Shown here: piece after piece, positions 51,367-59,550 of the stretch
Layout of the letters: each line of letters begins with the position of its first letter
How positions within the stretch are numbered: position 1 is the stretch's first letter
NCBI GenBank assembly: GCA_013288945.1
Contig: JABDAZ010000009.1
Coordinates: 1 to 64,000 of the forward strand
Length of the DNA: 64,000 bases
Direction: 5' to 3'
DNA from: Bacteroidota bacterium
GTDB taxonomy: Bacteria; Bacteroidota; Bacteroidia; Chitinophagales; Chitinophagaceae
The notes under the pieces: generated by a model
Database searches by the model: none
What the model was told of the DNA's origin: nothing
Seen by the model: the letters and a program-made list of their open reading frames with translations, nothing else
Translations under genes and position numbers: made by a program

Positions 51367-52065
51367 ATGGCAAAGATTAACGATTCGCTGATCGAAAATC
51401 TTGACAAGTTGCCCCAGTCAAGAAGAAATTTTTTCAGGTATGCGGGGGGCGCAGGATTAATAGCAACAGTTGCTGCAGCCTGTCATAAAGAAAACCCGGG
51501 CCCGGGCCACCATCCCGGCAAAACGGTAGACCTTGGTAGCGGTGATGTTGGTATTTTAAACTATGCGTATGCGCTGGAACAATTGGAAGCTGCGTTTTAT
51601 ACACGTGTTCTTGCAACTCCTTATTATCACATTTCATCATCAGAGTATTCATTATTAAGCGATGTGCGCGACCATGAAATTGCGCATCGTGAATTTTTTA
51701 AAACAGCTTTGGGAAGCAGCGCAATCCAGGCATTAACACCTGATTTCAGCAGTATTAATTTTTCGAGCCGCGATAGTGTACTTGGTGCTGCCAAAGCATT
51801 TGAAGATCTTGGCGTATCTGCATATAATGGCGCTGGGCAATTAATTGTAAGCCCGGATTATTTAACGCTTGCAGGAAAAATTGTTTCTGTAGAAGCACGC
51901 CACGCAGCATATATACGAGAATTGATTAGTATAAACAGTTTTGCTGATAATACCGTGCTTGATGCAAACGGACTTGATACAAGCCGCACGCCTGCACAGG
52001 TTTTAAGTATGGCATCTGTTTACATTGTTCAAACTATCGACGCGAGTCATTTACCAACAGCTTAA
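51367..52065 (+). CDS. Ferritin-like domain protein, Tat-exported
   Basis: A 232 aa protein of the ferritin-like (PF13668-type) group. The leader SRRNFFRYAGGAGLIATVAAAC combines a twin-arginine-like motif with a possible lipobox Cys. The four-helix body has the family's Glu and His ligands: ILNYAYALEQLEAAFYTRVL, DVRDHEIAHREFFKTALG, AAKAFEDLGVSAYNGAG and VSVEARHAAYIRELI. Such domains bind two metal ions. The reaction is not known; stress-related or desiccation-related roles have been proposed for relatives. A paralogue follows after 12 bp. Confidence 0.88.
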   Translation: MAKINDSLIENLDKLPQSRRNFFRYAGGAGLIATVAAACHKENPGPGHHPGKTVDLGSGDVGILNYAYALEQLEAAFYTRVLATPYYHISSSEYSLLSDVRDHEIAHREFFKTALGSSAIQALTPDFSSINFSSRDSVLGAAKAFEDLGVSAYNGAGQLIVSPDYLTLAGKIVSVEARHAAYIRELISINSFADNTVLDANGLDTSRTPAQVLSMASVYIVQTIDASHLPTA

Positions 52066-52077
52066 AAAATTATAACT

Positions 52078-52932
52078 ATGAATTTTCTAAACATTTTACA
52101 AGAAATAGAAAAGGCTGATCCGGAAGTTTTTGAAAAACTGGATACACGCCGCAGCGCATTAAAAAGTTTTACAAACGTATCGGGCAAAATTGCATTGGCA
52201 TCATTGCCATTTGCATTGGGAAGCATGTTTAAAAAAGCTTATGCAGGTGGCCCGTCAGGCACTACAGTTTTAGATGTATTTAATTTTGCACTAACACTGG
52301 AATACCTTGAAGCTGCATTTTATAAAAACGGAATTGCTGCAGGCGCAATGCTTATTCCAAATGCAAACGATCGCGCAGCGATTAACATTATTGGTACACA
52401 CGAAGCAGAGCACGTTGCATATTTGAAAGCTGCGATAACCGCTGCTGGCGGCACTCCTGTAGCTTCACCAACATTTGATTTTACTGCTGGTGGTGGAAAA
52501 GGCAATGGCCCGTTCCAGGATATTTTTACAAATTATGAAACATTTTTAGCAGTAGCACAGGCATTTGAAGATACCGGTGTTCGTGCTTATAAAGGCCAGG
52601 CGCCAAATCTTGTACAAGGCGGCGCTTATCTTACAGCAGCTTTAAATATTCATTCTGTTGAAGCTCGCCATGCTTCTAAAGTACGCCAGATGCGTAAAGC
52701 AAATGGTTTTTCTTCAACAGTAAAACCGTGGATTACTTTGGCTGATACCGGAGGCATTGGTGCTGCTGTGCAAGCAAACTATGCTGGTGAAGACAACACC
52801 GTGCAAGCCAACATTCAAATCGTAAACATTAATGGTTTTAAAATTTCTGCAGATGCCGCATCTGAAGCATTTGATGAACCATTAACAATGGCGCAGGTTG
52901 TAGCATTGGTAACTCCATTTTTCGCTGCATAA
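52078..52932 (+). CDS. Ferritin-like domain protein, paralogue of the preceding gene
   Basis: A 284 aa ferritin-like protein with the same ligand pattern: VFNFALTLEYLEAAFYKNG, IIGTHEAEHVAYLKAAI, VAQAFEDTGVRAYKGQ and HSVEARHASKVRQMR. An additional C-terminal region follows (KPWITLADTGGIGAAVQANYAGEDN, ending in the helix TMAQVVALVTPFF). The N-terminus has a hydrophobic stretch (IALASLPFALGSMFKKAYAGG) after RRSALKS, again suggesting export. It is 12 bp downstream of its partner and shares the terminator at 52968, so the two are probably made together and may form a hetero-oligomer (inference). Confidence 0.88.
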   Translation: MNFLNILQEIEKADPEVFEKLDTRRSALKSFTNVSGKIALASLPFALGSMFKKAYAGGPSGTTVLDVFNFALTLEYLEAAFYKNGIAAGAMLIPNANDRAAINIIGTHEAEHVAYLKAAITAAGGTPVASPTFDFTAGGGKGNGPFQDIFTNYETFLAVAQAFEDTGVRAYKGQAPNLVQGGAYLTAALNIHSVEARHASKVRQMRKANGFSSTVKPWITLADTGGIGAAVQANYAGEDNTVQANIQIVNINGFKISADAASEAFDEPLTMAQVVALVTPFFAA

Positions 52933-55997: not shown

Positions 55998-56900
55998 TTA
56001 AGAAAACGGTGGCTTATTTTCTCCAATCCAATTATTTTCAAACTCTGGTTTCCAACTGTGTTTCCAGCGGCGGTGGCTCCAGAGCCACATCTCAGGATTT
56101 TTGCGAATTACATTTTCCATATAATTTGCGTAGCGCAAAGTAAGTTCGCCTTCTTTTAAAACACTTGCATCTTCACACGCGAGCTCAATGCTGGCTTTAT
56201 AATATCCGCGTTTGGGTTTTGTTATTGATGTAAAAAAAACCGGTAAAGCTCCTGTTCTTGCGCCTTTTTCAGGGCCGGAAACAAATGGCGTCGGGCGGTT
56301 TAAAAAATTGGTCCAGTAAGCATTGTGCATACTGCCGGGACTTTGATCTGCAACGAGCCCAAGAAGATATTGTGTGTTTGCAAACGTTGGCATTTCCGTG
56401 CGCATATTGGTTGCTGAAATAAAAATATTTCCATTGCGCGTGCGCAACTTATACATTAACCGTTCAAAATTTTTATTTGATATCGGCATGTACACAACCA
56501 ATATTTGAAAATTGGTAAATTGAGTAAGCACATGCTGCCCCCACTCCCAATTAAATGTATGGCCAAGGTGCATCTGGCAACTTTTTCCTGATTTATAAAC
56601 TGGCTCAAGTACATCCCAATTTGCCGTTACACGTTTTTGTAAAAATTTGTTTGAAGCGCTTACTAATTTTATGGTTTCAATAAAAGAATCGATGAGATTA
56701 TGATAAAACTTTTTTGCAATTAATATAAGTTCTTCATTTGTTTTTTCAGGAAAAGCCTTTTGCAAATTATCCATCACAACAGTTTTTCTATAACCAAGCA
56801 GGCGATAAAAGATGATATAAAAACCATCTGAGATGATATACAAAATGCGCATCGGCAGCAACGAAACCAAATAAAAAAAACCGTAAATTAAATAATACAT
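55998..56900 (-). CDS. LpxL/HtrB-family lipid A-type acyltransferase
   Basis: A 300 aa inner membrane-associated acyltransferase. The N-terminal hydrophobic anchor (LIYGFFYLVSLLPMRILYIISDGFYIIFYRLLGYRKTVVMDNL) and the HTFNWE motif (His114-x4-Glu119) mark the LpxL/LpxM family. Typical later parts are VADQSPGSMHNAYWTNFLNRPTPFVSGPEKGAR and EMWLWSHRRWKH. It adds secondary acyl chains to lipid A or to related aminolipids. The C-terminal WSHRRWKH is intact. It is last in a minus-strand run after the ClC gene, with a 52-bp gap. Confidence 0.92.
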   Translation of the reverse strand: MYYLIYGFFYLVSLLPMRILYIISDGFYIIFYRLLGYRKTVVMDNLQKAFPEKTNEELILIAKKFYHNLIDSFIETIKLVSASNKFLQKRVTANWDVLEPVYKSGKSCQMHLGHTFNWEWGQHVLTQFTNFQILVVYMPISNKNFERLMYKLRTRNGNIFISATNMRTEMPTFANTQYLLGLVADQSPGSMHNAYWTNFLNRPTPFVSGPEKGARTGALPVFFTSITKPKRGYYKASIELACEDASVLKEGELTLRYANYMENVIRKNPEMWLWSHRRWKHSWKPEFENNWIGENKPPFS

Positions 56901-56952: not shown

Positions 56953-58341
56953 TTAATTAATAACATTAACAGCTTCTGGTTGCGCAATGATTTGCTGATC
57001 TTCTTTTTCAAGCTGGCGCATGTATTGAAATTTTAAATGATCATAAAAAGAATGTTTGTCAATCACAATTGCAGCTAGGCTTGCGATTAATCCCGCGAGC
57101 ATTAAATAAAAAATCATGTTGTGCCTGTCGGTCATTTCTAAAACCAATATCGCAGAAGTAAAAGGCGTGCGCGTTACGCCAGTTAAAAATCCAACCATGC
57201 CTGATAGAATTAATAAATTTGTATTTGAATCAGACAAGTGCATTAACCCTGACAAAAAAGATCCAACGCTTGCGCCAGCGCTTAATGCCGGCGCAAATAT
57301 GCCGCCTGATGAACCTGTTGAAAATGAAAATACCGGACCGGCAATTCTTAATACAGGAATATACCAAGGCAAATATTTATGTTGCGTAAATAATGTTGTG
57401 GTCATAATTTCTTTGCCCGATCCAAAAACTCTTTCATCAATAAAGTATGCGCAGGTTACAATTATTAATGCGCATATAACTATGTAAGAAATATGCTGCC
57501 ATGAAAATTTAAATTTTGATTTCCACCTCATTAATATCAAAATTAATTTTGACATTGCGCTGCCGCCCAAACCTGTTATTAATGCAATTAAAATAACGCC
57601 TGAAAACATATACGGCGAAACATTATTTACATTCGGATAACCAAGATATAAATACGGGCCCATTAATGCCTGCGCAGTTAAACCAGCAATGATAACGGAA
57701 GTAAAAATGGCGGTTTTAAAATAACTGATATGTGTTTTGGTAAGCTCTTCAACAGCAAAAACAATTCCGCCCAAAGGTGTGTTAAACGCAGCAGCAAGGC
57801 CGGCTGCAGCGCCTGTCATTATCATATTTTTTTTAGAAATTTTTGGCCACCATTCCGGCAACCATTGATTTATTTTTCTAAAAACAGATCCCGCAATTTG
57901 TATGGTTGGCCCTTCTCTTCCGATAACGCCGCCGCCAATTACCATTATTAAACTTGATAAAACTTTTATAAAAATTATGCGCAGGCTTAATAGTTTATTT
58001 ACTTTTTCATTGTAGTGCGGCGTTGCTAATTCTAACGACACCATTACCTGTGGTATTCCGCTGCCGCGGGAAAATGGCGCATACCTTTTTACAAGCCATC
58101 TTGCAATTAAAAAACAAACCGGTGTTATAATAAACAATGCATAAAAAAAATGATGCACGATGTAGGAAGTTGTATGTTCTGCCATTGCAAAAAGCCTTGC
58201 ATACAAAACGGCGAGCAACCCGGTTATTAATGATGCGATCCAATATGGAATGGCTTGTAATAAATTTAATTTCAGTTTTTCATTCCTGATATTATCAAAT
58301 GATTTTTTTAACTCGTTGCGAACTTTATTAATAAAAGCCAT
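56953..58341 (-). CDS. ClC-family chloride channel/antiporter
   Basis: A 462 aa membrane transporter with all ClC selectivity motifs: GSGIPQV (residues 93-99), GREGPTIQIAG (141-151) with the gating Glu143, and GSSGGIFAPAL further on. FAVEEL at 195-200 supplies the inner proton Glu198/199, so the protein is expected to be a 2Cl-/H+ antiporter rather than a pure channel. A short soluble tail lacks CBS domains. It sits between the acyltransferase and desaturase genes; a shared transcript is possible. Confidence 0.94.
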   Translation of the reverse strand: MAFINKVRNELKKSFDNIRNEKLKLNLLQAIPYWIASLITGLLAVLYARLFAMAEHTTSYIVHHFFYALFIITPVCFLIARWLVKRYAPFSRGSGIPQVMVSLELATPHYNEKVNKLLSLRIIFIKVLSSLIMVIGGGVIGREGPTIQIAGSVFRKINQWLPEWWPKISKKNMIMTGAAAGLAAAFNTPLGGIVFAVEELTKTHISYFKTAIFTSVIIAGLTAQALMGPYLYLGYPNVNNVSPYMFSGVILIALITGLGGSAMSKLILILMRWKSKFKFSWQHISYIVICALIIVTCAYFIDERVFGSGKEIMTTTLFTQHKYLPWYIPVLRIAGPVFSFSTGSSGGIFAPALSAGASVGSFLSGLMHLSDSNTNLLILSGMVGFLTGVTRTPFTSAILVLEMTDRHNMIFYLMLAGLIASLAAIVIDKHSFYDHLKFQYMRQLEKEDQQIIAQPEAVNVIN

Positions 58342-58484: not shown

Positions 58485-58521
58485 GCCATCATTTTTATTT
58501 ATTAATAATAAAAATGATGGC
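58485..58521 (-). terminator. Strong hairpin terminator of the desaturase gene
   Basis: Perfect 15-bp arms (GCCATCATTTTTATT and its complement) around a seven-base TATTAAT loop, followed on the minus strand by ATTTTTGTTTTG. Confidence 0.85.
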
Positions 58522-58542: not shown

Positions 58543-59550
58543 TCAATTTTGTTGAACCAAATCTTTATCAGGAACTGATTGATCTGTCAATGCAACTTTG
58601 CCTCTTTCTTTTCTTATTACACGTGAGTACAAAGAAATTTCTTTATCAAATAAAAATCGAAAAAATAATTTCGTCCAAGATGTGTGGTAATACAATGTGT
58701 TATAAAAACCAGGCGCAGTGTTGCGAATTTTTGGCAATTTATTCCATGGAATAGAAGGGAAATCATGATGCTCATTATGATAGCCAACATTAAACGCAAC
58801 GCTGTTCAACACGCCATAATAACTGTATGTTTCCTGTTCTTCGTGCGTTAAATAATGTTCCTGTATCCATCTTGCACCAAGCGGGTGCAAGCCAACAGAA
58901 AAGAAAAAACTTAGTAATAAATACATAATTGCCTTCGGTCCAAATGCGGCCCATATGCCTGCAATAAAAGCAATTTCCAATAAAAAATTTAATGCAATCC
59001 ATTTATCAAATGGTTTTATTTCGCGCAAACGTTGTATGCGAAATACCTGGAAAAATGGATAAAATAATAACCAGATTATTTTACCAATAAAATAATTATT
59101 AATCAATTTTGCTTCCCAACGATTTGGCAAATCTGCATCCAGTTCATGCACGCCCTGGAATGAATGATGTTTGATATGATAACGTTCAAAAGAAACCGAA
59201 CTTGGAAAAAGTTGTGGAAGGTTTGCCAATATTCCTGCAAGCCTGTTTGCGGGCCGGCTTCTGAATAATAGCTGGTGCGCACATTCATGTATCATCACAA
59301 ACAATGCATGATCCGCAAATGCGCCAAGTAAATATGCAGCAGGAATGATTATCCACCAAGATTGTGCGTGAACAAGCCATGCAGCAACAACCTGAAAAGT
59401 TACCAATCCTATAATTGCAAAAATTGTATACGGATTTTTTCCAATCAGCGTTCGCATTTCCGGGTGCTCTTTAAGGATTTGTTTTGTCCTTATGCGATGT
59501 GGTTCCCTTTCTTCAGAATAAACAAAATCGGTTCTTTTCATCATGATCAA
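58543..59550 (-). CDS. Sphingolipid delta-4 desaturase-like fatty acid desaturase (DEGS1-like)
   Basis: A 335 aa di-iron membrane desaturase with three His boxes identical in pattern to eukaryotic dihydroceramide delta-4 desaturases: HECAH (88-92), HIKHH (125-129) and HNEHH (258-262). The match extends beyond the boxes: the N-terminal segment DFVYSEEREPHRIRTKQIL parallels the Lipid_DES N-terminal domain, ETYSYYGVLNSVAFNVGYH precedes the third box, and DFPSIPWNKLP follows it. Hydrophobic helices flank the boxes as expected. It may introduce the 4,5-double bond of a ceramide. Bacteroidota make sphingolipids, so a sphingoid substrate is plausible, but no sphingolipid genes are in the window. The start may instead be Met4 at 59541. 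Confidence 0.9.
   Translation of the reverse strand: MIMMKRTDFVYSEEREPHRIRTKQILKEHPEMRTLIGKNPYTIFAIIGLVTFQVVAAWLVHAQSWWIIIPAAYLLGAFADHALFVMIHECAHQLLFRSRPANRLAGILANLPQLFPSSVSFERYHIKHHSFQGVHELDADLPNRWEAKLINNYFIGKIIWLLFYPFFQVFRIQRLREIKPFDKWIALNFLLEIAFIAGIWAAFGPKAIMYLLLSFFFSVGLHPLGARWIQEHYLTHEEQETYSYYGVLNSVAFNVGYHNEHHDFPSIPWNKLPKIRNTAPGFYNTLYYHTSWTKLFFRFLFDKEISLYSRVIRKERGKVALTDQSVPDKDLVQQN

Follow-up and report, generated by a model that had tools for sequence, protein, structure and literature searches.

A Bacteroidota gene of the sphingolipid delta-4 desaturase (DES/DEGS) family and its genomic association with ceramide synthesis

Introduction

The DES/DEGS family is the source of the typical double bond of animal and plant ceramides. 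Cytochrome b5 is the electron donor of the eukaryotic enzyme, and the animal paralogue DEGS2 can make 4-hydroxy bases. According to the accessible part of PMC12724326, bacterial sphingolipids are limited to simple forms, largely for want of glycosyltransferases and desaturases, and a ceramide d18:1/24:1 has been reported from Sphingobacterium detergens. Reports of a bacterial DES were not found in the available parts of the literature searched, which covered few subscription papers or preprints.

In this study, a stretch of 64,000 nucleotides (the window) from a Bacteroidota bacterium of the family Chitinophagaceae was analysed. Judged by sequence, one of its genes is securely an intact member of the sphingolipid delta-4 desaturase (DES/DEGS) family. 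It belongs to a bacterial branch of this family, common in Bacteroidota, that has genomic ties to ceramide synthesis and whose function is predicted. We consider it probable that the protein is a membrane di-iron desaturase that makes the C4-C5 double bond in the long-chain base of a ceramide-type N-acylated lipid, with dihydroceramide as the ancestral and likeliest substrate. The dihydroceramide reading is based on family membership, intact motifs, co-occurrence with serine palmitoyltransferase (SPT) and one ceramide/inositol cluster.

The desaturase gene and its surroundings

The features of the locus are as follows.

58543 to 59544, minus strand: DES-type desaturase gene, an open frame with PF08557 (48.7 bits) and PF00487 (100.9 bits)
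59428 to 59538, minus strand: N-terminal Lipid_DES domain PF08557, residues 5-41, 48.7 bits against a cut-off of 23 (52.7 bits in the genome search)
59275 to 59289, minus strand: His box 1, HECAH, residues 88-92, both His invariant in alignment A1
59164 to 59178, minus strand: His box 2, HIKHH, residues 125-129, all three His invariant in alignment A1
58765 to 58779, minus strand: His box 3, HNEHH, residues 258-262, within NVGYHNEHHDFP, invariant in alignment A1
58485 to 58521, minus strand: hairpin with a 15-pair stem and a T-rich tail, directly 3' of the stop, putative terminator
56953 to 58341, minus strand: neighbouring gene for a ClC-type channel/transporter (PF00654), in the same order in G401, with no shown functional link
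55998 to 56900, minus strand: neighbouring gene for a lipid A acyltransferase family protein (PF03279), likewise in the same order in G401 and with no shown functional link

A single open frame on the minus strand covers positions 58543-59550 and encodes 333 residues from the ATG at 59544, or 335 if the TTG at 59550 is used. The ATG, which fits the N-termini of relatives, is favoured as the predicted start, and the TTG is a mechanical one. The sequence-only reading had described three His boxes, a Lipid_DES-like N-terminus and a block comprising ETYSYYGVLN and NVGYHNEHHDFP; the boxes were found at residues 88, 125 and 258, the N-terminal domain scored over its cut-off, and both parts of the block are present in the translation. 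The Pfam scan placed the FA_desaturase domain PF00487 at residues 65-283. Of 58 bacterial relatives, the window protein counted, 57 keep all three His boxes. The hairpin and T-rich tail suggest that the gene probably has its own terminator and thus its own transcript end, with one terminator-type site observed against 1.1 expected in shuffles.

The acyltransferase, ClC, DES, Pth, L25-type and PRPP-synthetase-type genes are collinear in the window and in G401, a genome of the same genus. When the genes surrounding the window DES and 80 named DES loci were clustered, no recurrent neighbour emerged, the commonest being present at 15 of the 81. No sphingolipid cluster was seen beside DES at loci L145, L147-L152, L154, L155 and L157-L159, at L156 (G253) or in the 3.1-kb views of G447 and G436. 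Elsewhere in the window, at 51367-52932 on the plus strand, there are two successive genes whose proteins we take, by eye, to be ferritin-like.

A structure model of the desaturase, built from a 31-row alignment, reached a middling mean pLDDT of 69.1 and a pTM of 0.66. Its one Foldseek match below E 0.001 was a chain of the chloroplast FtsHi motor complex (8xks_K, 8xqw_M), and AlkB (8f6t) was matched at E 0.17 with a probability of 1.00, so that the model gives weak support only. A DES relative was not found among solved structures, where seven profile matches near E 0.8 are chance. As a separate observation, the chloroplast FtsHi motor complexes may hold a desaturase-like subunit.

Co-occurrence with SPT

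In a sample of 147 genomes of the window's family, 33 carried PF08557 over cut-off. SPT was called from a match over the NF047600 cut-off or at E 1e-160, a rule that a very divergent SPT would escape; 32 genomes had a match over the NF047600 cut-off. SPT was present in 21/33 DES carriers versus 11/114 non-carriers, that is, 21 genomes had both genes, 12 DES only, 11 SPT only and 103 neither (Fisher p 1.1e-9, odds ratio 16). Counted by genus, the corresponding numbers were 17, 7, 8 and 60 (p 1.2e-7). A pair test corrected for relatedness was run on a tree built from a core gene in 100 genomes out of the 147. These 100 included all 33 DES carriers, 31 of the 32 SPT carriers (G359, with a cut core gene, was dropped) and 57 of the 103 genomes with neither gene, selected by hand. 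Ten independent pairs differed in DES, and in these SPT was on average concordant in 7.2 and opposite in 0.1 (median p 0.016, range 0.008-0.125). In the phylum-wide sample, 73 genomes belong to the window's class; 10 have DES, 10 have SPT and 6 have both. A strong ceramide-synthase-like GNAT accompanied SPT in 31 of the 32 SPT genomes of the family at 437 bits or more, and the remaining match is cut.

Outside the window's class SPT was taken from adjacency instead of the cut-off. An SPT-type gene lies about 135 bases or less from a ceramide-synthase-like gene in 20/20 DES carriers there, and the ceramide-synthase-like gene is also present in all 23 DES-less relatives tested. Since the pair is thus core in these lineages, it is uninformative on DES and shows substrate availability only.

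The association has exceptions, as SPT is absent over cut-off in 12/33 DES carriers of the family sample. Some of these are well assembled, with 6 contigs for G150, 20 for G342 and 40 each for G373 and G304, and DES without SPT is found elsewhere in the class in G249 (one contig) and G146 (10 contigs). Among 14 named isolate genomes with DES, SPT was found in 8 and not in 6, namely Puia dinghuensis, Sediminibacterium goheungense, S. roseum, S. soli, Deminuibacter soli and Flavitalea sp. BT771; Deminuibacter soli is probably G342 and so may count in both samples. The control genome of Bacteroides ihuae has SPT and no PF08557 match. As we take this organism to be an anaerobe, SPT without DES would fit an oxygen-dependent enzyme. 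Two further observations concern ceramide-synthase-like genes. G150 has one of middle score (298.9 bits) with no AOS gene beside it, and G294:C1:3667668-3668779, in a DES carrier, gave a two-piece match adjoining an SPT-type gene.

Ceramide synthesis clusters

Of the 21 genomes of the family sample that have both genes, just one has them no more than 20 kb apart. In G344 (locus L146), DES is part of a cluster on one strand that runs from SPT to a PAP2 protein. The order is SPT, GNAT, epimerase-type reductase, inositol-phosphate synthase (PF07994), PgpA, a small membrane protein, an outer-membrane-type protein, an unknown protein, a CDP-alcohol phosphatidyltransferase with DUF4833, a fatty acid hydroxylase (PF04116), DES and the PAP2 protein. 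For the GNAT and the reductase, the labels bCerS and CerR are presumably the appropriate ones. The G344 DES scored 46.5 bits with PF08557 and is 57.7% identical to the window protein. The best NCBIfam match of the PAP2 protein was phosphoinositol dihydroceramide synthase at 297.8 bits, below the cut-off of 480. The position of DES between the hydroxylase and the headgroup enzyme is the place expected of a long-chain-base desaturase, in this single case.

Clusters of the G344 type that lack DES were found in G253, G099 and G091, and in G390 the GNAT and the reductase are missing as well. Shorter SPT-GNAT-reductase sets are present in G401, G033 and G296, so that DES falls within one (G344) of the eight SPT clusters viewed. 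As a side observation, the CDP-alcohol phosphatidyltransferase of G344 is fused to DUF4833 (L146:15861-17198), and in G091 the two are apparently separate neighbouring genes.

In the proposed pathway, dihydroceramide would be made by the bacterial route, in which SPT is followed by a GNAT-type N-acyltransferase and then by an epimerase-type reductase. DES would add the C4-C5 double bond to give a sphingosine-type ceramide, and in genomes like G344 this product would receive an inositol-phosphate headgroup. In the most economical account, lineages that lost SPT would keep DES because it could also use sulfonolipids, or ceramides of other origin. The enzyme's activity, the position of the double bond, its electron donor and its oxygen requirement are predictions from the family, and its substrate and the step order are likewise predicted.

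The window's own genome and a possible sulfonolipid substrate

The window assembly is 72.86% complete. No SPT was found in it over cut-off, and the best match to the SPT model was a glycine C-acetyltransferase-type protein. The assembly also has no match to the ceramide-synthase-like GNAT, its weaker paralogue included. This weaker paralogue (about 140-210 bits) gave a match at E 1e-25 in 143/147 genomes of the family and could itself be a sulfonolipid N-acyltransferase. With the assembly this incomplete, and a near-universal gene also missing from it, the missing SPT says little. Among genomes of the same genus, G401 has DES and SPT, the latter adjoining ceramide-synthase-like and reductase-like genes, and G322 has DES only. 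The sequence-only reading had held that a genome lacking SPT would speak against it. SPT is literally absent from the window assembly, but the assembly is 73% complete and the same-genus G401 has the gene; in the window's own organism the SPT step is putative.

The single AOS-family enzyme of the window genome left unassigned (L153:8840-10099, G000:C14) scored 610.7 bits against 7u7h and 588.1 bits against PDB entry 28eh, 'Cysteate-C-fatty acyltransferase', compared with 233.7 bits for SPT. To judge from these matches it is a cysteate fatty-acyltransferase, the entry enzyme of sulfonolipids, and a sulfonolipid substrate is therefore open to the window DES. A close homologue is encoded in 143/147 family genomes, and sulfonolipid synthesis thus looks like a core trait of the family. 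Sulfonolipids are described as ceramide analogues in the accessible part of PMC9304779. According to the portion of PMC3463246 available, the capnine base of Algoriphagus RIF-1 has an additional hydroxyl at position 5, which indicates that capnine bases are modified near C4-C5. Also in the window genome, an aspartate-aminotransferase-type gene at L006 (G000:C47) appears as two overlapping frames, from an assembly error or a real frameshift.

It is possible, though on present evidence unlikely, that in carriers without SPT, the window organism included, DES introduces a double bond or a hydroxyl into the capnine base of sulfonolipids, which are N-acylated sulfur analogues of ceramide phosphate. 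A sulfonolipid substrate is favoured by the encoded acyltransferase, by the modified base of RIF-1 and by well assembled genomes and isolates, Puia dinghuensis and Sediminibacterium goheungense among the latter, that retain DES but have no SPT; the acyltransferase homologue is present in 33/33 DES carriers. However, 110/114 genomes without DES have it as well, so that it is no predictor of DES, in contrast to SPT. Additionally, in the tree described below the DES proteins do not sort by the presence of SPT in their genomes but are intermingled, and within the window clade no alignment column separates the two groups (top MI 0.53, against a mean shuffled maximum of 0.55). The interleaved tree and the lack of a separating column give no sign of a switched substrate. 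The suggestion in the sequence-only reading that the gene gives sphingosine-type lipids thus holds in part. Relatives link the gene to ceramide synthesis, but the window assembly shows no SPT and encodes a cysteate fatty-acyltransferase, the latter leaving a sulfonolipid substrate possible.

Hydroxylation at C4 is a less probable alternative, in which the enzyme would make 4-hydroxy (phyto-type) bases or be bifunctional. A hydroxylase of this kind would share the family and the di-iron boxes, and the motifs do not distinguish desaturation from hydroxylation. It is counted as quite improbable here, as a provisional DEGS1 sequence groups with a bacterial clade other than the window's. Desaturation of dihydroceramide at C4-C5 is retained as the preferred reading.

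Relation to ordinary acyl-lipid desaturases

The window's genome has one PF08557 match. None was found in 14 control genomes, though 5 of the 14 have FA_desaturase proteins, and it follows that the match is not due to chance. In the Pfam scan, PF08557 and PF00487 were both present in five bacterial relatives, and PF08557 was absent from five other FA_desaturase proteins. The three boxes of rice DES1, 49 residues as printed in the accessible part of PMC6923433, were used as a yardstick. The window protein is identical at 31/49 positions and seven bacterial relatives at 25-36/49, against only 14-21/49 for 15 other FA_desaturase proteins from five genomes. The tree was built from 58 bacterial DES rows, other desaturases and human DEGS1, which was the only eukaryotic row and whose sequence is provisional. 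Bacterial DES and the provisional DEGS1 were split from the other desaturases with an SH-aLRT of 97 when 13 outgroup rows were used, and with support of 87/76 when there were 11.

It is very unlikely, then, that the protein is an ordinary acyl-lipid desaturase that carries DES-like motifs by chance. PF00487 is common to ordinary desaturases and the NCBIfam matches are weak, with no model over cut-off and DesA as the best at 32.1 bits versus a cut-off of 500, but the presence of PF08557, the box identities and both trees stand against such an assignment. The sequence-only reading, which had placed the gene with DES/DEGS and had proposed a phylogeny with DEGS1 and bacterial desaturases as the check, agrees with these results, as the window protein does not fall among the ordinary acyl-lipid desaturases.

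Distribution and origin

PF08557 was carried by 30/296 genomes sampled across the phylum. In a contig scan, the best 80 relatives among the matches listed were all Bacteroidota, with 70-84% identity, and were mostly Chitinophagaceae-type and Mucilaginibacter records. In the SPT-bearing genome G423, one region matched PF08557 below threshold at 22.6 bits, with two TAA (G423:C20:298220-298291). A tblastn search of this region with the window protein gave no match, and for this reason no pseudogene was called and G423 was counted as a non-carrier.

The bacterial DES rows form a window clade of 25, a clade of 13 that contains G344, another of 12, and two further clades of four rows each outside the window's class. 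The provisional human DEGS1 row joins one of the latter (G191, G089, G262 and G187) with support of 100/99 and is 48% identical to the G191 DES. A topology with all bacterial DES rows in one clade is not rejected (p-AU 0.093), and any ancient exchange between bacteria and eukaryotes may therefore have run in either direction. No support was found for a recent eukaryotic origin of the window clade, with human DEGS1 as the one eukaryotic row in the tree. Viral contigs were considered as a source, given algal-virus DES, and no relative was found in them.

Recent acquisition from a eukaryote, or eukaryotic contamination of the contig, has the strong likeness to eukaryotic DES motifs in its favour and is most improbable given the bacterial neighbourhood collinear with the same-genus G401, the Bacteroidota loci that make up the best 80 relatives listed and the several deep bacterial clades in the DES tree. 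The transfer from a eukaryote that the sequence-only reading had allowed lacks support, the gene being placed in a deep bacterial family with several clades. We would also propose, tentatively and as something rather unlikely, that one bacterial DES family acts on both ceramides and sulfonolipids, giving 4,5-unsaturated or hydroxylated capnine bases, and with them sulfonolipids of a sphingosine-like class, in carriers without SPT, and that the G191/G089/G262/G187 clade is the source of the eukaryotic dihydroceramide desaturase or draws on a common gene pool with it.

Significance

The tendency of DES to accompany ceramide-making genes suggests that the carriers may make sphingosine-like lipids. 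DES is common in Bacteroidota, follows SPT and is found in at least one ceramide/inositol cluster, which argues against the statement, in the accessible part of PMC12724326, that desaturases are wanting. If the enzymes are active, they would provide bacterial sources of sphingosine-type bases and call for caution in lipidomics where d18:1-type bases are read as eukaryotic. They would also constitute an enzyme family useful for structure work, in which no solved relative was found, and new evidence on the origin of the eukaryotic enzyme. The named cultured carriers make the substrate question directly testable; those with SPT include Chitinophaga rupis DSM 21039, C. japonensis DSM 13484, Ferruginibacter paludis and Mucilaginibacter corticis, and those without include Sediminibacterium goheungense DSM 28323, Puia dinghuensis and Deminuibacter soli.

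Comparison with known systems

Bacterial acyl-lipid desaturases, which have PF00487 only, share the membrane di-iron superfamily with the window protein. They differ in that the five scanned are without PF08557 and in that they lie outside the DES clade in the trees. The sulfonolipid (capnine) pathway resembles the proposed one in that the window genome has the gene for its first step and its products are ceramide analogues; it differs in that no desaturase of the pathway was found in the available parts of the literature searched and in that its acyltransferase is not predictive of DES. The bacterial ceramide/inositol-phosphoceramide cluster, with SPT, GNAT, reductase and NF052609, is similar in that the 57.7%-identical relative lies inside one in G344, whereas the window DES stands apart and its 73% complete assembly gave no SPT or ceramide-synthase match.

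With the DES/DEGS family the window protein shares PF08557 and PF00487 over cut-off and three His boxes with the HNEHHDF block. Unlike the eukaryotic members, the window gene is bacterial and intron-free, with a function predicted from the sequence, and the bacterial members usually stand alone. Within the family, the window clade has HPLGARWIQEHYLT where another bacterial clade and the provisional human DEGS1 row have HPLSGHFISEHYVF-like residues.
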